64,000 nt of DNA, from NCBI GenBank assembly GCA_902763805.1, contig CACWTN010000004.1, positions 1 through 64,000 of the forward strand. The letters run 5' to 3'. The notes under the pieces are model-generated. The model saw only the letters and a program-made list of their open reading frames with translations. It did no database searches and had not been told where the DNA came from. Below are positions 1-58,391 of the stretch, piece after piece (the stretch's first letter is position 1; every line of letters begins with the position of its first letter). The position numbers and the translations under genes were made by a program. The DNA comes from an uncultured bacterium (GTDB lineage: Bacteria > Cyanobacteriota > Vampirovibrionia > Gastranaerophilales > Gastranaerophilaceae).

Positions 1-60
1 CGTGTCATGTATCCTTGCTGTTAACATCAGCAGTCTTGCTTGTGATGCCGCCATTCCCAT
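1..60 (-). CDS. Partial small protein of unknown function, sigma-28 driven
   Basis: Only the first 20 codons lie in the window, reading leftward from an ATG at 60. They begin MGMAASQARLL and stay open to the window edge. A Shine-Dalgarno-like AAAAGGA sits about 12 nt upstream (73-78 on the top strand). The gene is preceded by a perfect sigma-28 promoter (102-128), so I infer a product made together with the flagellar late genes. The Ala/Leu-rich start recalls the 144-residue protein at 19247. I remember similar N-termini in gut Gastranaerophilales proteins but know no function. The reading frame is short, so the call rests mainly on promoter, ribosome site and start codon fitting together. 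Confidence 0.6.
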   Translation of the reverse strand, partial: MGMAASQARLLMLTARIHDT

Positions 61-156: not shown

Positions 157-174
157 GTTACATTTCGTTACATA
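157..174 (+). promoter_or_regulatory. HLR1-type direct repeat (perfect match)
   Basis: GTTACATT-TC-GTTACATA fits the cyanobacterial HLR1 consensus (G/T)TTACA(T/A)(T/A)NN(G/T)TTACA(T/A)(T/A) without a mismatch; the half-sites are 10 bp apart. It sits between the leftward sigma-28 promoter and the rightward udp promoter, so either could be the target. Binding by an RpaB-like response regulator is inferred. Confidence 0.65.
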
Positions 175-18785: not shown

Positions 18786-18849
18786 TTTACAAAAGTTTAC
18801 ATTATCAAATTAAAAAGGCAATTATCGGAGACAGAAATACTTTATATAT
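18786..18849 (+). promoter_or_regulatory. HLR1-linked promoter, copy A
   Basis: A perfect HLR1 box (18786-18803, TTTACAAA-AG-TTTACATT) is followed by 14 nt, GCAATT (18818-18823), exactly 16 nt and CTTTATATAT (18840-18849). AAGGAG and the ATG at 18878 follow. The GCAATT element falls at the -35 position if CTTTATATAT holds the -10, placing HLR1 at roughly -70 to -53, where cyanobacterial RpaB sites activate. Confidence 0.75.
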
Positions 18850-18877
18850 ACATAAAGGTATTTTATAAGGAGTAATA

Positions 18878-19081
18878 ATGAAAGAAGAAGAACTTAATGC
18901 TACGATGTCAGTGATAGCAGATCCAATTAAAAATGTATATAAACTGGATTCAAGACAAGCTGTAGAAGAAATCCAGAGAATTTGCAGAATATTTGATATT
19001 GCAGATAAACAAGCCAATAAACATAAAATGCTTTCAATCAAGAATTTGGCAACATTCAGGCTTGTTTTAAGCAACAACTAA
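18878..19081 (+). CDS. Small helical protein, 67 residues, HLR1-linked
   Basis: Not recognised. The protein is acidic at the start (KEEELNATMSVIADPIKNVY) and then amphipathic helical (SRQAVEEIQRICRIFDIADKQANKH). There is no signal peptide or membrane segment. AAGGAG lies 6 nt before the ATG. It is a single-gene transcript with the shared tripartite promoter in front and a strong terminator behind, which is good evidence for a real gene. The function is open; expression is probably under the same regulator as the genes at 19247, 38848, 43616, 58203 and 62074. Confidence 0.75.
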   Translation: MKEEELNATMSVIADPIKNVYKLDSRQAVEEIQRICRIFDIADKQANKHKMLSIKNLATFRLVLSNN

Positions 19082-19136: not shown

Positions 19137-19156
19137 ACCACATTAAACATGTAATT

Positions 19157-19219
19157 GTTAAGTTTTGTAACAAATAAAACAAAGCGTGAAATTAGATATT
19201 TTTGAAATACTTTATATAT
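19157..19219 (+). promoter_or_regulatory. HLR1-linked promoter, copy B
   Basis: A degenerate HLR1-like pair (19157-19174, GTTAAG-TTTT-GTAACAAA), GAAATT (19188-19193), exactly 16 nt, CTTTATATAT (19210-19219). The gene starts 27 nt later at 19247. Confidence 0.65.
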
Positions 19220-19246: not shown

Positions 19247-19681
19247 ATGTCAACAGCATCAAGTTTAGCAGCATTATTAAGAGTTCAGGCAGATCTTAGC
19301 TATGATACAAGCAGATTAAGCTTTGTCAGCCAAGAATACCAGACTGCTCATAAACAGCTTCAAGAGCAGGAAAAATACGCTACGAAATGGGAAAATGCAA
19401 AAGATGCTGCTCTTGACCCTGATAAAACCTGCAAAATCGGCAACCGTACCTGGAAGGAAAAAGATGAAGTTTTAAGCGAAGCAAGAGCAGAAGAATATGC
19501 AGACGCTAAGGTTAAACAATTTGACCAGGAATTATATGATTCATTATGTGAAAAAGACGTAGAATACGAAGCATTAAAAACACTTTATGAAACAGAAATA
19601 ACAATATTACAACAGGAAGAACAAAACCTCAAAACTCAGACCGGAACATTTGCTCAGGATACACACCTGTTACAGTCATAA
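19247..19681 (+). CDS. Coiled-coil protein, 144 residues, HLR1-linked
   Basis: Not recognised. After an Ala/Ser/Leu-rich start (MSTASSLAALLRVQ) the protein is almost entirely charged helix rich in Glu, Gln and Lys, with heptad-like spacing (about 30-60 and 80-135). It has no signal peptide. The start recalls the partial gene at 1-60, so they may belong to one loose family. AAAAGG precedes the ATG by about 8 nt. Transcription is expected from promoter copy B. It ends 1 nt short of the stop of convergent folD, with no terminator between. Confidence 0.7.
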   Translation: MSTASSLAALLRVQADLSYDTSRLSFVSQEYQTAHKQLQEQEKYATKWENAKDAALDPDKTCKIGNRTWKEKDEVLSEARAEEYADAKVKQFDQELYDSLCEKDVEYEALKTLYETEITILQQEEQNLKTQTGTFAQDTHLLQS

Positions 19682-26973: not shown

Positions 26974-29900
26974 TTATATTTCGCCTAACGTTGTTGAAGT
27001 TTCAAAGAAGTTGATATTCAAGAGTTCTGAATCTATATCAGATAAAGTTCTCTTTGGAGCAGCCTTTCTAAGGTCGTCCATATCAGACATCAAATCTACT
27101 TCAGTACCGTTTTTCTTAGCAACTGTAATATCTAAACCGATACTTTGCAATTCTCTTACAAGTACCTTAAATGATTCAGGAATACCCGGTCTCGGAATAT
27201 TGTCGCCCTTAACAATAGCTTCGTATGCTCTGTTACGTCCATTAACATCATCTGATTTGATAGTTAACATTTCTTGCAGAGTATAAGCTGCGCCGTATGC
27301 TTCAAGCGCCCAAACTTCCATTTCTCCGAATCTTTGTCCGCCGAACTGAGCCTTACCACCTAAAGGTTGTTGTGTTACCAATGAGTAAGGACCTGTTGAA
27401 CGAGCGTGAATCTTATCATCAACCAAGTGAACAAGTTTAAGGATGTATGAAAGACCTACTGCAATAGGTTCATCAAACGGTTCGCCGGTTCTGCCGTCGA
27501 TTAAGTATACTTTACCGTCAGGTCTTACCCAGTCACAGCCTGATTCTTTAATACCTCTCATAAGTTCTGCTTTAGTTGCGATTTCTGATTGGTTATCACC
27601 ATATCTTTCATCGAAAGAAGGTGCTTCATAATGGTCTTTTGTTAAGTATGCTGCTAAACCTAACAAGCATTCATAAGTTTGACCAACGTTCATACGAGAA
27701 GGTACACCAAGAGGGTTAAGAACTATATCAACCGGTGTTCCGTCAGGTAAGAACGGCATGTCTTCCTTCGGTAATATTCTTGAAACAATACCCTTGTTTC
27801 CGTGACGACCTGAAAGTTTATCACCAACAGATACTTTACGTTTTTGAGCAATGTAAACTCTGATAACTGTATTTGCTCCCGGCGGAAGTTCGTCGCCTTT
27901 TTCTCTGTCGAATACCTTAACATCGACAACACGACCGCCTTCACCGTGAGGAACTCTTAATGAGTTATCTTTTACATCTCTTGCTTTTTCAGCGAAGATA
28001 GCTCTCAAAAGTTTTTCTTCCGGCGGATGTTCACTTTCACCCTTCGGAGTAACTTTACCAACAAGAATATCATCTGCATAAACTCTTGCACCGATACGAA
28101 CAATACCTCTTTCGTCCAAGTGTCTTAATGCTTCTTCTGACACATTCGGAATTTCTCTGGTAATTTCTTCAGGTCCGAGTTTTGTTTGTCTTGCATCTAT
28201 TTCTAATTTTTCGATGTGAACTGATGTAAAGATATCATCGTGTACGCATCTTTCAGAAAGTAAGATAGCATCTTCGAAGTTATATCCTTCCCAAGGCATA
28301 TATGCTACCAAAATGTTTTTACCAATTGAAAGTTCTCCGCAGCTTGTTGATGCACCGTCTGCAATTACATCACCTGCTTTAACCTTGTCACCTTCGTGAA
28401 CAATTGGTTTTTGGTTAATACAAGTATCCTGGTTAGAACGAACATATTTCATTAATGTATGTAAGTGAGCTTTTCCGTGTACGTCACGAATAACAATTTC
28501 TTCACCTACAACTCTTTCAACAGTACCGTCACATTTAGCACAAACTACCATACCTGAGTCTTTTGCAACACGGCGTTCCATACCTGTACCTACTACAGGT
28601 CTTTCTGTAATAAGAAGCGGTACTGACTGACGTTGCATGTTTGAACCCATCAGAGCACGGTTAGCATCATCGTGTTCAATAAACGGAATCATTGAAGTTG
28701 CAACCGAGATAATCTGAATTGGGCAAACACCAACGAAGTCTACCTTTGAAGAATCTGACATAATAAATTCAGATTTATATCTTACAGGAACCTGTTTCTG
28801 TTTGAATGTATTATCTTTATTCAACTGAACGTCAGCAGGAGCACAACGGAAGTTTTCGTCTTCGTCAGCTGTCATATAAACAACTTCGTCAGTAACCTTA
28901 CCGTCTTTAACTACAAAGAACGGAGATTCAACGAAACCATAATCGTTAACTCTTGCGTGAGTTGCTAATGAACCTATCAAACCAGCGTTCGGACCTTCAG
29001 GTGTTTCTACCGGACAAATACGACCGTAGTGAGAAGGGTGAATATCACGAACTGCAAAACCTGCTCTTTCTCTCTGTAAACCGCCAGGTCCTAATGCAGA
29101 AACACGTCTTTTGTGAGTAAGTTCTGCGAGCGGGTTAATCTGGTCCATAAACTGAGATAACTGTGAACTTCCGAAGAATTCCTTCAAAGAAGCTACCAAC
29201 GGTTTTGTGTTCAGCAAGTTTAACGGAGTAAGTGTTTCAGAGTCCTGCAATGTCATTCTTTCTTTTACAATTCTTTCAATTCTTGAAAGACCAACTCTGA
29301 ATTGATTTTGAAGAAGTTCACCGACTGAACGGATTCTTCTGTTTCCTAAGTGGTCGATATCATCCAAAGTACCTTCATCATAAGTTAAGTTGATTAAGTA
29401 CTCAATTGAAGCAACGATATCCTGAACTGTTAATGTTCTCTGGTTCTTAGGAATGTTCAGGTTTAATTTTTTGTTTAATTTATAACGACCAACACGACCT
29501 ATATCGTATTTCTTTTCATCAAAGAATCTTGATTCAAGAATTTGACGTCCGCCCTGTGCAGATGCAGGATCGCCAGGTCTTAATTTCTTGTACAAATCAA
29601 TTAAAGCATCATCTGTAGTTTCTGTTGTATCTTTATCCAAAGTCTTTTTCAAGAATTCAAAGTGTGTGAACAAAGATTCCATTTCAGTAACAGTGATACC
29701 CATAGCTTTAAGTAATGTTGTAGCAAGGATTTTTCTGTTTTTATCAATCTTAACGTAGATTACGTCATTTGAATCTGTTTCAATTTTCAACCATGCTCCT
29801 CTGTTAGGAATCATAGTTGCGTTATATAATCTCTTACCAGTTGGAGAGATTTCTCTCTTGAAGTAAACGCCAGGTGAACGAACGATTTGAGAAACGATAA

Positions 29901-30288
29901 CACGTTCTGCACCGTTTACAATGAATGTACCTTTATCAGTCATTGTAGGAATATCACCAATGTATACTTCCTGTTCTTTAATTTCACCGCTGTCACGGTT
30001 AACTAATCTAACCATTACACGAAGCTGTTTAGCATAGGTCGTATCATGGATACGAGCTTCTTCAATCGTGTACTTTGCGTTGTCAAACGTGTAGTTAGGC
30101 AGAAAATGAAGTTCAAGTCTTCCCGTATAATCTTTTACAGGAGAAAAAGCAAGTAATTCTTCTTTAAGCCCTTCCTTTAAAAACCATTCAAATGATTTTT
30201 TTTGCACGTCAATTAAATCCGGTAAATCGTCCAAACGAGTATTTGGTATACCCATTGGCGTTACTCTTTTTGCGTATTCTGTCGACAT
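26974..30288 (-). CDS. rpoB: RNA polymerase beta subunit
   Basis: A full beta subunit of 1104 residues. It contains the rifampicin-pocket region ([22 protein letters not shown], with the HKRR core around residue 394), [10 protein letters not shown], and the C-terminal [24 protein letters not shown] that contacts beta'. A Glu-rich trailing segment follows. AGGTG precedes the ATG. The usual rplJL genes are not upstream; a small unknown gene is there instead. Transcription is expected from the promoter at 30484-30511, leaving a leader of about 190 nt. Confidence 0.98.
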
Positions 30289-30549: not shown

Positions 30550-30577
30550 TTTACAAAATTTTACAAAAATTTACAAA
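30550..30577 (+). promoter_or_regulatory. Triple HLR1-type repeat upstream of rpoB
   Basis: TTTACA occurs at 30550, 30560 and 30570 with an exact 10-bp period. Each adjacent pair satisfies the HLR1 consensus. Relative to the rpoB start of transcription it spans about -73 to -100, on the strand opposite to the gene. The stretch also follows the stop of the small gene at 30593. Confidence 0.65.
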
Positions 30578-38768: not shown

Positions 38769-38833
38769 GTTACATATCTTTACAAAAATATGATAAAACA
38801 GGCAATTTTTTTAGACAATTTATCTTTATAAAT
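38769..38833 (+). promoter_or_regulatory. HLR1-linked promoter, copy C
   Basis: A perfect HLR1 box (38769-38786, GTTACATA-TC-TTTACAAA), 15 nt, GCAATT (38802-38807), exactly 16 nt, CTTTATAAAT (38824-38833). It serves the gene at 38848. The same 16-nt core recurs at 48543 before flagellin 4. Confidence 0.75.
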
Positions 38834-38847
38834 ATAAGAGGATTATT

Positions 38848-39447
38848 ATGAGTTTAAATAATTACGTAACAAATTTATTTGACGGCAAAACATCACACGG
38901 CACACTCGCCAGCAATGGCAGAGCCAGCATTGTTAAATCCTCAGAAGGAAGAATATACGTAATTATAGACGGCGTTACGTATTCAGCAAACAGAGATGAT
39001 TTGTTCGGAATTAATGATAACATTAATGTCTGGCTAGACAGTTACGTAAAAAAACACGATTTGGAAATTAAAAAACATGAATTTAATGACGAAAGCGAAA
39101 GAAGAATTTCCAAAATATTAACAAACATGAAAAAAACTGATGAACAAATTGAAATATCGAGAAAAAAACAACTTAAAATAACAGAAAATATAAAAATTTT
39201 AAAAGAAAAATTTTACAATTATCTTGAAGAATGCGGAGTAACCTCAAAAGGCCAGCTGGTTGGTGAGCAGAAAACACATGCAAATAATCTGTATAATGAA
39301 CGATGGGCAGAAATATTTAACAAGACAAGCGAGGGAATAAAAGAAGACCGCTTGCTTTCCGATAATTGTTCACTCGCATTTGATAAGGGCAAAGTTGAAA
39401 GACAAATAGCATTTAATAATCTAATACTTGAAAACATTTATACTTAA
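38848..39447 (+). CDS. Hypothetical protein, 199 residues, HLR1-linked
   Basis: Not recognised. Residues 1-75 look like a small beta-containing domain (GRASIVKSSEGRIYVIIDGVTYSANRDDLFGI). Residues 85-135 are a strongly charged coiled coil (RRISKILTNMKKTDEQIEISRKKQLKITENIKILKEK). It has no signal peptide. AGAGGA lies 8 nt before the ATG. It shares the tripartite promoter with five other genes, and the start is only 14 nt from CTTTATAAAT. Placement beside flagellin 1 may hint at an envelope or motility link, but nothing in the sequence proves it. Confidence 0.7.
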   Translation: MSLNNYVTNLFDGKTSHGTLASNGRASIVKSSEGRIYVIIDGVTYSANRDDLFGINDNINVWLDSYVKKHDLEIKKHEFNDESERRISKILTNMKKTDEQIEISRKKQLKITENIKILKEKFYNYLEECGVTSKGQLVGEQKTHANNLYNERWAEIFNKTSEGIKEDRLLSDNCSLAFDKGKVERQIAFNNLILENIYT

Positions 39448-43506: not shown

Positions 43507-43523
43507 TAGTGCAAATTATTATT

Positions 43524-43586
43524 GTAAAGTTTTGTAACAAAACACTTAAACGCTGAAATTAGGCATAAAATAAATACTTTATATAT
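43524..43586 (+). promoter_or_regulatory. HLR1-linked promoter, copy D
   Basis: A degenerate HLR1-like pair (43524-43541, GTAAAG-TTTT-GTAACAAA), GAAATT (43555-43560), exactly 16 nt, CTTTATATAT (43577-43586). Copies B and D share both the half-site variant and GAAATT. Confidence 0.65.
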
Positions 43587-43615: not shown

Positions 43616-44815
43616 ATGAGCAGTAAAATTGCCAGAATACAGTGTCATAGTCCGTTTCAGCACTATGTAAATAGTCACCGTAACGATCGCGGATACGATA
43701 ACAGCATATTTATTAATACCACATATAATATTGAATGCTGTGGTATAGGCGGCGGATGGGGCAGCATTCTGAGCGGTGTTGGAATGGGCATAGGTGCGTG
43801 GCTGGCACGACTGATTAACTGCAATATATATGGCGGCTATCCGATGGGCGGCTATCCGATGGGCGGCTATCCGATGGGTGGCTATCCGATGGGCGGCGGC
43901 TACCCGGTGGGCGGAGGATACGGCGGCAGACAAAAAGACAGTGTCGGAGGAGAAAAGAAAGATACCGAACATTGCAAAGGTAAAGATGCCGAATACTTAC
44001 ACAAATTAAGAACAAGACTTAACAAACTTGATGAAGATGACAATCCTGCTGAAGCAGCTAAAAAATTATACAATGATATTGCATCAGTAATTGCAAAACA
44101 AAAAGATGATGATCATAACGATATTGATGAAGCAAACTATAAAGATTTAAAATCAGACCTGGAAAAGAAATGGAAATTTACACTTAAAGACGGCAAAGCG
44201 GAAAGTGCAGAACCTATAAAGCCGAGCAAAGAGTCAACAGATGACGGCAAAAAACAGGTAACAGCAGCACAGGTAAATACAGGCAACACAGATAAAAATA
44301 AAGAAAGCGCGTCACCATTACAGGTAACTACTGACAACAATGGAAAGACCCGGGTTGAAATCCGGTTTGCAATACACGACGGAAAAGAACTGCTTGATAA
44401 TGAAATAAAAGGCAAATTGTGCGGTATTGCACTAAAAGCAGACAAAAAACTTAATTACTACGTAGTTGACTGTGATACAAAAGACAGTAAATTTAAACTA
44501 AGATACAAAATTACAAAAATAGATGAGAACACATACAATGTAAAATGCATCAGCTTGAATCATCACTGCGAAGAATTCAAGAACAGAAACCTGTATGCAA
44601 ACAAAAATGGAGTAAATTACACTGTAGTCGGCGATAAACTCGTATCTGACGGAGATGATACAGTCGTATCAATACGTAAAAAAGAAGGATACGATATACC
44701 TATTAAATATGTAAAAGGTAAAGTAAATGAAAAAGAAGATTACGTAAAAATGGACTATTCCGACATTGATAACGAAAAAATCGAAATAATCAAAAAAGAA
44801 TTAACTAACGATTAA
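43616..44815 (+). CDS. GGYPM-repeat protein, 399 residues, HLR1-linked
   Basis: Not recognised. Residues 1-68 include ECCGIGGGWGSILSGVGMGIGAWLARLINC, a glycine-rich amphipathic or membrane-active stretch. Residues 73-102 are tandem GGYPM repeats ending GGYPVGGGYGG. A charged Lys/Asp/Glu region follows (110-245), then a C-terminal part with beta character (VEIRFAIHDGKELLDNEIKG...). No signal peptide. Gly/Tyr/Pro repeats are known in self-associating or adhesive proteins; that is analogy only. The ribosome site is weak (AAGAGG). It has promoter copy D and a terminator, so it is a single-gene unit. Confidence 0.7.
   Translation: MSSKIARIQCHSPFQHYVNSHRNDRGYDNSIFINTTYNIECCGIGGGWGSILSGVGMGIGAWLARLINCNIYGGYPMGGYPMGGYPMGGYPMGGGYPVGGGYGGRQKDSVGGEKKDTEHCKGKDAEYLHKLRTRLNKLDEDDNPAEAAKKLYNDIASVIAKQKDDDHNDIDEANYKDLKSDLEKKWKFTLKDGKAESAEPIKPSKESTDDGKKQVTAAQVNTGNTDKNKESASPLQVTTDNNGKTRVEIRFAIHDGKELLDNEIKGKLCGIALKADKKLNYYVVDCDTKDSKFKLRYKITKIDENTYNVKCISLNHHCEEFKNRNLYANKNGVNYTVVGDKLVSDGDDTVVSIRKKEGYDIPIKYVKGKVNEKEDYVKMDYSDIDNEKIEIIKKELTND
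43832..43891 (+). repeat. Four tandem 15-bp repeats encoding GGYPM
   Basis: Four copies of GGCGGCTATCCGATG, identical except for one C-to-T in the fourth (GGTGGC...). Near identity of synonymous sites indicates recent expansion or strong conversion. A degenerate fifth unit (GGCGGCGGCTACCCGGTG) follows. The GC content of this tract is well above its surroundings. Confidence 0.9.
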
Positions 44816-46344: not shown

Positions 46345-47244
46345 TTACAACAAGTTCAGAGCGATACTTGGTGTTTGGTTAGCAGTTGCAAGTAATGTTG
46401 CAGATGCCTGTTGAAGAATTTGTGCCTTAATATAATTTGAAGATTCAGTTGCAACATCAGCATCTCTTAATGTAGATAATGATGACATAATGTTTTCAGA
46501 CTGAACACCAATTGATTCAACAGCAGAATCGATTCTGTTTCTTGCAGCACCTAATGTAGTAATACGAGAAGAAATTGTATTGATTACATCATCAATATTT
46601 GCAAGCATAGAACTTGCTGTTGTACCGGATTTCAATCCTGCACATTTTGTAGCTAAATCTTCTCTTGCTGCTTTCTTTTGTTCATCAGTAACAGAATCAG
46701 AATCATCGTTATTAAATAATGCTTTTACGTCACCTCTCTTAAATAAGTCACCTGCAAGGGCGATTTGAGATTTAGCAGCATTACCGTCAATACCTACCTG
46801 AATTCCAAGACCTGCTTTTAAAGAACCATTCATCATGTACTGACCGCTGAATTCGCAGTTAGCAGCAATACGGTCGATTTCTTCAAGTCTAGCGTTGATT
46901 TCTGATTTAATTGCTTTTAATGACTGAGTACCGTAAGTACCGTTTGCAGCCTGTTCGGTCAAGTCTCTTACACGTTGTACGTGTGTTGAAACTAATGCAT
47001 AATGGTCTTCAAGTGTTGATAACATATCTGCACCTGTTGCTGCGTTTGCAGCTGCTACTTCTAATGAACCAAGCTGTGCTTCCCAGTTTCTTGCAATTGA
47101 ATAACCTGCTGCGTTATCTGCTGCGTGGTTAATTTTGAAACCGGTTGTCATTCTTTCGATTGCTTTGTTCAATGAAAATGTAGCTTTTGATAAGTTTGAT
47201 TGAACGATCATTGAAGATAAATTAGTGTTAATAGTGATTGCCAT
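46345..47244 (-). CDS. Flagellin 3 (299 residues)
   Basis: Start set at ATG 47244 (MAITINTNLSSMIV), matching the sister flagellins. An in-frame ATG 25 codons upstream would consume the leader and its ribosome site. Terminal helices are conserved (ADNAAGYSIARNWEAQLG; ILQQASATLLATANQTPSIALNLL). The middle is the acidic NDDSDSVTDEQKKAAREDL (about 201-219). AAAGGAG lies 7 nt before the start. The leader has a perfect CsrA-like site and an HLR1 box lies further upstream. Confidence 0.95.
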   Translation of the reverse strand: MAITINTNLSSMIVQSNLSKATFSLNKAIERMTTGFKINHAADNAAGYSIARNWEAQLGSLEVAAANAATGADMLSTLEDHYALVSTHVQRVRDLTEQAANGTYGTQSLKAIKSEINARLEEIDRIAANCEFSGQYMMNGSLKAGLGIQVGIDGNAAKSQIALAGDLFKRGDVKALFNNDDSDSVTDEQKKAAREDLATKCAGLKSGTTASSMLANIDDVINTISSRITTLGAARNRIDSAVESIGVQSENIMSSLSTLRDADVATESSNYIKAQILQQASATLLATANQTPSIALNLL

Positions 47245-47322
47245 GTGATACTCCTTTCTGGCGTTACATCCTTGTAGACATGCGATCCTTGCACATCTCT
47301 TACTTTTGTCTAGTTCCACATT
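47245..47322 (-). promoter_or_regulatory. Flagellin 3 leader with CsrA-like GGA sites
   Basis: On the bottom strand: TGTGGAAC (47320-47313), TGCAAGGATCGCA (47293-47281) and TACAAGGATGTA (47276-47265), then the ribosome site AAAGGAG. The last palindrome equals the core of the CsrA consensus RUACARGGAUGU with GGA in the loop. Control by CsrA is inferred, as known for flagellins of Bacillus and Campylobacter. Confidence 0.55.
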
Positions 47323-47354: not shown

Positions 47355-47372
47355 GTTACAATTCTTAACAAT
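47355..47372 (+). promoter_or_regulatory. HLR1-like box upstream of flagellin 3
   Basis: GTTACAAT-TC-TTAACAAT, one mismatch to HLR1. It lies 111-128 bp upstream of the start codon, on the strand opposite to the gene. Its TGTAACAAA edge is exactly 29 nt from AATGTGGAA, as for flagellins 4 and 5. Confidence 0.5.
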
Positions 47373-47519: not shown

Positions 47520-48434
47520 TTACAGTAAGTTCAAAGCAATACTTGGAGACTGGTTAGCTGTTGCTAACAATGTTGCTGATGCCTGTTGTAATATTTGTGC
47601 CTTGATATAGTTTGAAGATTCTGTTGCTACATCTGCATCTCTCAGAGTTGATAATGATGATGTGATATTTTCTGACTGAACACCAATTGATTCAATTGCT
47701 GATTCTATTCTGTTCTGTGCTGCACCTAATGTAGTTATTCTGCTTGAGATTTTATTAATAACCTGATCTATGGTTCCAAGCATATCTGTAGGTGATTTAG
47801 CACCTGTACCGGTACTTGTACCTGCACAATCCTTTGCCAATTTTGCAAGTTTTGCATCTTCATCTGCACCTGTTGGTGAATATGCACCGTCACCGGTTAT
47901 TGCAAATAAAGAAGATATTTTACCGCTTGCAAATAAGTCTGCTGATAAGGATATCTGGCTTTTTGCCGCATTACCGTCAATACCTACCTGAATAGATTTT
48001 GCTGATGTATTTGTTCCATCCATCATCTTGATACCATTAAATTCACAGTTCGAAGCAATACGGTTAATTTCTTCCAATCTTGCTTTAATTTCGGCTTCAA
48101 TTGCTTTTTTTGACTGTTCGCCATAGGTTCCGTTTGCTGCCTGTTCAGTAAGGTCTCTTACACGTTGTACGTGTGATGATACTAATGCATAATGATCTTC
48201 TAATGTAGATAACATATCTGCACCTGTTGCCGCATTATCTGCTGCTATATCAAGTGAACTTATCTGTGCTTCCCAATTTCTGGCGATAGAATAACCTGCC
48301 GCATTATCTGCTGCGTGATTAATTTTATATCCTGTGGTCATCCTCTCAATAGCGCTGTTAAGTGCAGTTGTAGATTTTGCCAAATTATTCTGTACTATCA
48401 TTGAAGATATATTAGTATTTATTGTAATAGCCAT
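47520..48434 (-). CDS. Flagellin 4 (304 residues)
   Basis: Conserved ends INTNISSMIVQNNLAKSTTALNSAIERMTTG and TLRDADVATESSNYIKAQILQQASATLLATANQSPSIALNLL. Nearly identical to flagellin 2 outside the middle (ITGDGAYSPTGADEDAKLAKLAKDCAGTSTGTG). GAAAGGAG lies about 7 nt before the ATG. It is its own transcription unit, with a terminator behind and a leader with GGA motifs plus a perfect HLR1 box in front. Confidence 0.95.
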   Translation of the reverse strand: MAITINTNISSMIVQNNLAKSTTALNSAIERMTTGYKINHAADNAAGYSIARNWEAQISSLDIAADNAATGADMLSTLEDHYALVSSHVQRVRDLTEQAANGTYGEQSKKAIEAEIKARLEEINRIASNCEFNGIKMMDGTNTSAKSIQVGIDGNAAKSQISLSADLFASGKISSLFAITGDGAYSPTGADEDAKLAKLAKDCAGTSTGTGAKSPTDMLGTIDQVINKISSRITTLGAAQNRIESAIESIGVQSENITSSLSTLRDADVATESSNYIKAQILQQASATLLATANQSPSIALNLL

Positions 48435-48542: not shown

Positions 48543-48560
48543 GTTACATATCTTTACATT
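48543..48560 (+). promoter_or_regulatory. HLR1 box upstream of flagellin 4 (perfect match)
   Basis: GTTACATA-TC-TTTACATT, no mismatch to HLR1. It is 109-126 bp upstream of the start codon and on the opposite strand. The 16-nt core is identical to that of promoter copy C at 38769. Confidence 0.65.
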
Positions 48561-48653: not shown

Positions 48654-49535
48654 TTATAACAAATTCAAAGCAATACTTGGTGACTGGTTAGCTGTTGCTA
48701 ACAGTGTTGCTGATGCCTGTTGTAATATCTGTGCCTTGATGTAGTTTGAAGATTCTGTTGCTACATCTGCATCACGTAATGTTGACAGTGATGATGTGAT
48801 ATTTTCAGACTGAACACCAATTGATTCAATTGCAGATTCTATTCTGTTCTGAGCTGCACCTAATGTTGTAATACGTTCTGATATTGTAGAGATTACTGTA
48901 TCAATTGCAGAAAGCTGTTCCTGAGCAGTGTTGCCTGTTCCAGTAACCTGACCTGAACATTTTTTTGCAAGATTTGTAGAGTTAGCAAATAAACCTGCTA
49001 CTTTACCATTTGCGAATAAAGATTTATCAAGGTGAATTCTGCTCTTAGAAGCAGTACCGTCGATACCTACCTGAATATCAAGACCAACATCGCCGGCATC
49101 GCCTGTTGCAGTAGAACCTGCCATCAACTTAATACCGTTAAATTCGCAGTTTGCAGCAATACGGTCAATTTCATCAAGTCTTGCCTGAATTTCTGACTCA
49201 ATTGCTTTCTTAGACTGTTCTCCGTATGTTCCGTTAGCAGCCTGTTCGGTCAAGTCTCTTACACGTTGTACGTGTGATGAGATTAATGCATAATTATCTT
49301 CTAACGTAGATAACATATCTGCACCTGTTGCCGCGTTGTCTGCTGCTACATCTAACGAACTTATCTGTGCTTCCCAATTCCTTGCAATAGAATAACCTGC
49401 AGCGTTATCTGCTGCGTGGTTAATTTTGTAACCTGTTGTCATTCTCTCAATAGCAGAATTTAACGCCGTAGTTGACTTTGCCAAATTGTTCTGAACTATC
49501 ATTGAAGAGATGTTTGTATTAACTGTAATAGCCAC
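48654..49535 (-). CDS. Flagellin 5 (293 residues)
   Basis: The shortest of the five. GTG start (49535) with AAAGGAG about 7 nt upstream; the three others in the row use ATG. Conserved ends as in its neighbours; the middle contains GSTATGDAGDVGLDIQVGIDGTASKSRIHLDKSLF. First in the leftward row and divergent from the ferredoxin gene at 49723. Confidence 0.95.
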   Translation of the reverse strand: MAITVNTNISSMIVQNNLAKSTTALNSAIERMTTGYKINHAADNAAGYSIARNWEAQISSLDVAADNAATGADMLSTLEDNYALISSHVQRVRDLTEQAANGTYGEQSKKAIESEIQARLDEIDRIAANCEFNGIKLMAGSTATGDAGDVGLDIQVGIDGTASKSRIHLDKSLFANGKVAGLFANSTNLAKKCSGQVTGTGNTAQEQLSAIDTVISTISERITTLGAAQNRIESAIESIGVQSENITSSLSTLRDADVATESSNYIKAQILQQASATLLATANQSPSIALNLL

Positions 49536-49653: not shown

Positions 49654-49671
49654 GTTACAAATCTTAATAAT
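49654..49671 (+). promoter_or_regulatory. HLR1-like box upstream of flagellin 5
   Basis: GTTACAAA-TC-TTAATAAT: the first half-site is perfect and the second has two mismatches. It is 119-136 bp upstream of the start codon, between this gene and the rightward oxidoreductase operon. Confidence 0.45.
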
Positions 49672-58095: not shown

Positions 58096-58159
58096 TTAAC
58101 ATTTCTTTACATATTAAAATAAAAAAGGCAATTCTTTAAAAAGAAAATACTTTATATAT
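58096..58159 (+). promoter_or_regulatory. HLR1-linked promoter, copy E
   Basis: A near-perfect HLR1 box (58096-58113, TTAACATT-TC-TTTACATA, one mismatch), GCAATT (58128-58133), exactly 16 nt, CTTTATATAT (58150-58159), then AAGGAG and the ATG at 58203. Confidence 0.72.
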
Positions 58160-58202: not shown

Positions 58203-58391
58203 ATGGCAAGAGTATTAATTTCCATGCCTGAAAGTTTTTTAGGCAAAATTGACGAAGTAGCAGAAAATGAAAGCCGCTCACGTTCTGAGCTTATCAGAGA
58301 AGCTTTAAGAAGCTACATTACACGTTCACAAGTAAGACAAAACACACTGGCAGACAAAAATGCACGTATTTTAGAAGCGCTGCTGGACTAA
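58203..58391 (+). CDS. Ribbon-helix-helix (CopG/Arc-type) protein, 62 residues
   Basis: The N-terminal strand MARVLISMPESFLGKIDEVAENESRSRSELIREALRSYI is a typical RHH unit: a beta-strand that enters the DNA major groove as a dimer, followed by two helices. The last 20 residues are a polar tail. RHH proteins are repressors, antitoxins or NikR-like regulators; no toxin gene adjoins, so an antitoxin role is not supported. AAAGGAG lies 8 nt before the ATG. Promoter copy E makes it the one recognised DNA-binding protein of the HLR1-linked group. Confidence 0.85.
   Translation: MARVLISMPESFLGKIDEVAENESRSRSELIREALRSYITRSQVRQNTLADKNARILEALLD

Follow-up and report, generated by a model that had tools for sequence, protein, structure and literature searches.

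The response regulator RpaB and the kinase NblS have been studied as a photosynthesis switch, and what the pair does beyond photosynthesis was a question raised in 2013 for the lineage that concerns us here. In photosynthetic cyanobacteria the consensus of the RpaB-binding element HLR1 and its positions have been described, the activating position being −66 to −45 (PMC13421787). Homologues of RpaA, RpaB and NblS were reported in Melainabacteria by Di Rienzi et al. in 2013 (PMC3787301) and Soo et al. in 2014 (PMC4040986), and the former proposed a different function for them; the portions of the two papers drawn on here treat the same lineage and genes but give no binding sites, targets or promoter architecture. 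Gastranaerophilales are described as being without photosynthesis and respiration genes, both by Di Rienzi et al. (PMC3787301) and in a termite-gut study (PMC5877343). The stretch of DNA analysed here (hereafter the window, the first 64,000 nt of contig C4 in a Gastranaerophilales genome of 1.96 Mb) nevertheless carries HLR1-like boxes, and thereby raises the question of what reads them and what they control.

We searched for the boxes with the pattern KTTACAWWNNKTTACAWW, testing for the consensus form KTTACAWW-NN-KTTACAWW, with a period of 10, within promoters. The window contains seven exact boxes, every one intergenic. All of the exact matches in an earlier sequence-only reading (at 157, 18786, 30550, 38769 and 48543) were recovered, as were its near matches at 47355 and 58096, with one mismatch in each; its list had however overlooked one exact box, at 43521-43538 on the minus strand. 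Shuffling the whole window gave an expectation of about 0.01 exact boxes, and shuffling the AT-rich intergenic DNA (6.6 kb) alone gave 0.0055 (largest 1 in 2000). Since both shuffles yield far fewer than the seven observed, chance and AT-richness were rejected as the source of the boxes. Across the genome there are 45 exact boxes, against 6 for the reversed pattern, and all 45 lie outside called genes. The same holds for each of the 34 boxes in one genome of the same genus and each of the 16 found across three genomes from another family. Among the first 100 pairs of TTACA listed, the period was 10 in 35 and 11 in 5. The boxes thus combine the consensus, the period of 10 and the promoter location expected of HLR1 elements, and their presence in this genome is confirmed. 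The sites and genes of the window to which we refer below are as follows.

1-60, minus strand: protein start MGMAASQARLLMLTARIHDT, truncated by the contig end; target of the promoter at 103-174, with the same start on contig C14.
103-128, minus strand: sigma-28 (FliA-type) promoter TAAAGTTT-N-CCGATA, reading leftward.
157-174, plus strand: exact HLR1 box, reverse, lying 28 nt ahead of the sigma-28 promoter at 103-128.
18786-18803, plus strand: exact HLR1 box in forward orientation; TACTTTATATATA at 18838 lies 34 nt downstream of it.
18838-18850, plus strand: TACTTTATATATA promoter element, preceding the open reading frame (ORF) 18878-19081.
19154-19171, minus strand: HLR1 box with one mismatch, reverse, 36 nt upstream of TACTTTATATATA at 19208, followed by ORF 19247-19681.
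30550-30577, plus strand: two exact HLR1 boxes that overlap, making three TTTACA repeats; downstream of them, at a distance of 261 nt, gene 26974-30288 (minus strand) starts.
38769-38786, plus strand: exact HLR1 box, 61 nt ahead of ORF 38848-39447.
43521-43538, minus strand: exact HLR1 box, reverse, 36 nt upstream of TACTTTATATATA at 43575.
43616-44815, plus strand: glycine-rich protein without a Pfam family, target of the box at 43521.
47355-47372, plus strand: HLR1-like box with one mismatch, upstream of the flagellin gene 46345-47319 (minus strand; probable start 47244).
47520-48434, minus strand: flagellin, by Pfam matches (PF00669, PF00700).
48543-48560, plus strand: exact HLR1 box, reverse; flagellin 47520-48434 starts 108 nt away.
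49654-49671, plus strand: HLR1-like box with two mismatches, upstream of flagellin 48654-49535 (minus strand).
58096-58113, plus strand: HLR1 box with one mismatch, in forward orientation; TACTTTATATATA at 58148 lies 34 nt downstream of it, and a ribbon-helix-helix gene follows at 58203.

At 45-50 kb there are four flagellin genes, and three of them are preceded by a box at a distance of 108-118 nt, measured for the second from the likely ATG at 47244. The start of gene 26974-30288 resembles that of RNA polymerase beta.

When the target promoters were aligned, the box mostly pointed away from the gene, reading TGTAAM...TGTAAM, and many promoters carried CTAAAGTTT-N-GCCGATA, the sigma-28 consensus. 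Using the pattern TAAAGTTT-N10/11-GCCGATA, we found 36 sigma-28 (FliA) promoters in the genome and none with the reversed control; the assignment is based on the consensus form and on a late flagellar target, FliD. An exact box accompanies 15 of the 36, always in reverse orientation and at a gap of 16, 17, 18, 27 or 28 nt, so that 15 of the 45 exact boxes of the genome are accounted for by this arrangement. Allowing one mismatch at gaps of 16-18 or 26-28 nt raised the number of sigma-28 promoters with a box to 24, two mismatches to 27 and three to 33, whereas no box with one mismatch or fewer turned up in 7200 shuffled controls, of which 0.13% had one with two. Most sigma-28 promoters of this genome are therefore tied to an activator-type site. 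A FliA-family sigma factor is present in a genome of the same genus (G006; TIGR02479 score 230.9, cut-off 189.6); in the stretches of the present genome that we examined, around the sites and at a few clusters, fliA was not found.

These composite promoters also bear on the assignment of the box at 157-174. The nucleoside phosphorylase gene at 270 was considered as its target and set aside, because the sigma-28 promoter and the box phased with it read leftward; the box belongs to that leftward promoter and not clearly to the rightward gene. The sequence-only reading had missed three things: the link to sigma-28, the preference for reverse orientation and the actual target of this box. Also rejected as targets were ilvC and some other forward neighbours, as they adjoin a reverse-oriented sigma-28 promoter.

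The spacing between box and promoter is restricted. Although gaps of 14-29 nt were allowed in the composite search, all 121 composites listed from eight genomes of the genus have a gap of either 16-18 nt (91) or 27-28 nt (30). The two classes are one helical turn apart and, with transcription starts placed by convention, centre the box near −60 and −71. This bimodal spacing is the pattern of a class I activator. At class I promoters of E. coli CRP, activator sites likewise lie near −61 and −71, one turn apart; the present case differs in having direct repeats, sigma-28 promoters and an OmpR-family protein as the presumed activator.

A second kind of promoter, marked by the element TACTTTATATATA, has its HLR1 box at equally fixed gaps, nearly all of them reverse 36-38, forward 34 or forward 23-24. 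Of 19 TACTTTATATA sites in the 481 kb sampled, 14 are accompanied by a box with two mismatches or fewer. As the sample was drawn from the surroundings of boxes and sigma-28 sites, this fraction is biased upwards; the fixed gaps are unaffected by the choice. Two further TACTTTATATATA sites have a three-mismatch box at the same gap. Four boxes in the window are of this type (18786, 19154, 43521 and 58096), and it was found also in another family of the order. The placement of the box at about −70 to −53, proposed from the window sequence alone, fits both the TACTTTATATATA and the sigma-28 promoters with start sites set by convention, and the accompanying suggestion that this is an activating position is now backed by fixed, helically phased spacing. 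At three other loci (L042, L050 and L064:9461), boxes are followed by GGCAATTTT and the palindrome-like AAGTTCAGTGAACTT or a close variant, an arrangement that is possibly a third promoter type or the site of a second regulator.

We conclude that the boxes are almost certainly activator sites in composite promoters. That they are instead repressor sites, roadblocks or AT-rich DNA resembling an UP element has some basis, in that RpaB of photosynthetic cyanobacteria represses where HLR1 overlaps the start site (PMC13421787) and several boxes here are far from any recognised promoter. We consider this quite improbable, however, as the main classes occupy two helically phased positions ahead of the −35 element, which is a hallmark of class I activation, and an 18-bp pattern of this specificity does not suit an UP element.

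We then asked which protein might read the boxes. The proposal that RpaB does so depended on the genome encoding an RpaB-like regulator, and among its four OmpR-family regulators one (L031:1486-2268) scores 355.8 bits with the RpaB model NF045944, above the equivalog cut-off of 330, whereas the other three fail the model. A maximum-likelihood tree of 52 proteins places this RpaB together with photosynthetic RpaB and separates it from both RpaA and non-cyanobacterial regulators; the joining fork has support of 89/97 and is not fully starred. Its recognition helix, DTRVVDVHISRLRSKLE, differs between gut and photosynthetic forms only at one S/A position, and the form DTRVVDVHISRLR[SA]KLE is present. 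Proteins of Candidatus Gastranaerophilales and of related uncultured genomes, several of which come from rumen and horse faeces, share 81-97% identity with it. RpaB is likely to be the protein that binds the boxes.

Two other classes of reader were weighed. An RpaA orthologue lies at C4:64751, 750 nt to the right of the window (tree support 99/89), and its recognition helix has VHI..LRSK in common with that of RpaB; it, or either of the other two OmpR-family regulators, could have acquired an HLR1-like specificity. This seems unlikely, since the RpaA helix differs from that of RpaB at several positions, the RpaB helix is the one found in organisms with known HLR1 binding, and the 18-bp consensus is exactly the published RpaB site (PMC13421787).

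Alternatively, the boxes might be direct repeats of TGTWAH or TTTACA of the WalR, PhoB or PhoP type, unrelated to HLR1 and read by a WalR- or PhoB-like protein. RpaB and WalR are relatives with similar half-sites, the regulator and kinase families of the WalRK (YycFG) system of Bacillota are related to those considered here, WalRK uses direct-repeat half-sites of TGTAA type, and the present genome encodes a PhoB-like regulator with an adjacent kinase. WalR and Pho boxes, however, have a period of 11 bp, whereas that of the boxes here is 10 (by 35 to 5 in the pairs counted above), and no regulator of the genome reaches the WalR (YycF) or PhoB model cut-offs; with the WalR model NF040534 the score is 219.8 against a cut-off of 340. 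Boxes of the WalR or Pho type do not fit these observations, and we regard this explanation as highly improbable. An OmpR-family activator, most likely the RpaB orthologue, thus probably binds the boxes and acts as a class I activator.

Although its DNA-recognition helix is conserved, RpaB of this genome differs in its receiver domain. The single receiver cysteine C59 is a thioredoxin target in Synechocystis RpaB (PMC4361706); it is a feature of the RpaB proteins that have been studied and lies outside the definition of NF045944. The corresponding residue is threonine in this genome, in most Gastranaerophilales and in three Vampirovibrionales-type sequences, the cysteine being kept in Obscuribacterales, in f8 (a related family of the class) and in a few Gastranaerophilales. 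The redox cysteine appears, from this distribution, to have undergone lineage-specific loss or change.

The genome also encodes an NblS-like kinase, at C1:211495, with the architecture HAMP-PAS-HisKA-HATPase. Its best matches among photosynthetic genomes are NblS; of the four that were tested, three (L306, L307 and L309, at 1134-1150) exceed the NF045911 cut-off. The kinase itself falls far below this cut-off (319.9 against 1000) and aligns only over residues 157-599; the N-terminal 156 residues are unaligned, such that the cytoplasmic half matches the model and the sensor half is not conserved. Given the lineage and this divergence of the kinase, it is plausible that the system responds to a signal other than high light, as the sequence-only reading had proposed.

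Within about 1 kb upstream of rpaB there is no box with fewer than two mismatches, and autoregulation of rpaB was rejected as the region holds only boxes with two or three; upstream of the nblS-like gene there is none within three mismatches.

Exact box–sigma-28 composites occur in 37 of the 72 genomes searched, the reversed control being zero in all 72. They are present in all 22 genomes of the genus that were searched (3-32 per genome), and other genera and families within the order carry smaller numbers. Nine genomes belonging to other classes of the phylum gave none, and neither did f8. The number of boxes is highest in one genus. With sigma-28 promoters alone counted in the same 72 genomes as denominators, the box is tied to about half or more of exact sigma-28 promoters across the genus. 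Orthologous promoters within the genus, which are 55-62% alike, retain both box and sigma-28 element, and the changes between them mostly fit the consensus. As f8 has an RpaB with the same helix and almost no boxes, use of this exact box by RpaB need not be universal.

Besides FliD, the sigma-28 composites lie upstream of EF-hand-like and coiled-coil proteins, many short proteins without a Pfam family and a multi-copy family with the common N terminus MG[LM]SASQARLL. At least seven members of this family are encoded, all with a sigma-28 promoter and box, and they share long predicted N- and C-terminal helices around a variable middle; a structure model is of low confidence (pLDDT 48), with only the N- and C-terminal helices well predicted. 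The 157 box and the sigma-28 site at 103 precede a member cut by the contig end. Window positions 1-60 (minus strand) and C14:1-60 are identical in sequence, inside the gene MGMAASQARLLMLTARIHDT; as two contigs start alike, the assembly evidently broke in a duplicated gene. Boxes were also noted upstream of rplS (L19; L041:4914) and rpsJ (S10; L044:3267).

The system therefore resembles photosynthetic RpaB–HLR1 in its 18-bp consensus, its orthologous regulator and recognition helix and its activating position upstream of −35. It differs in that the targets are flagellar, lineage-specific and in some cases housekeeping rather than photosynthetic, in the sigma-28 composites, in the threonine at C59 and in the kinase sensor half. 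The DNA code thus appears to have been kept while regulon, kinase sensor and redox cysteine changed, which suggests that a light-response switch does a different job in this lineage. We found no report of the boxes, their targets or an HLR1–sigma-28 promoter in the open-access literature.

In the mechanism we propose, each of the two TGTAAM (KTTACA) repeats would be occupied by one of two RpaB subunits, sitting on the same face of the DNA at a spacing of 10 bp. With the centre of the box near −60, or a further turn away at about −71, RpaB would contact RNA polymerase from upstream of the −35 element in class I style and activate transcription. One geometry would serve two kinds of promoter, those of sigma-28, for late flagellar and lineage-specific proteins, and those with TACTTTATATATA and a poor −35. 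The NblS-like kinase would be the partner of RpaB and its input an envelope or gut signal rather than light, so that a cyanobacterial light-response regulator would gate motility and surface or exported proteins. The boxes make this testable by supplying a target list, a predicted geometry and box mutation as a control. More speculatively, RpaB–HLR1 may predate its role in photosynthesis, having served, as perhaps still in Gastranaerophilales, as a global activator of class I type, controlling motility and lineage-specific surface or exported proteins through sigma-28 and the second promoter type and under a kinase with a different sensor, the code then being re-used for light in photosynthetic cyanobacteria; we hold this broader possibility only tentatively.

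As to how such proteins might leave the cell, the genome encodes two full-length FlhA homologues, and it is our guess that the targets are exported by the two FlhA-type systems. In addition to the flagellar operon on contig C6, a second operon on contig C10 (L250:8871-14493) encodes FliF, an unknown protein, FliH and an FlhA-like protein, the last of which falls below NCBI's cut-offs for both FlhA and SctV. Matches to part of the FHIPEP profile also occur at C7:36931-37977, in a frame of 490 amino acids, and at C1:140336-140602, in one of 220.
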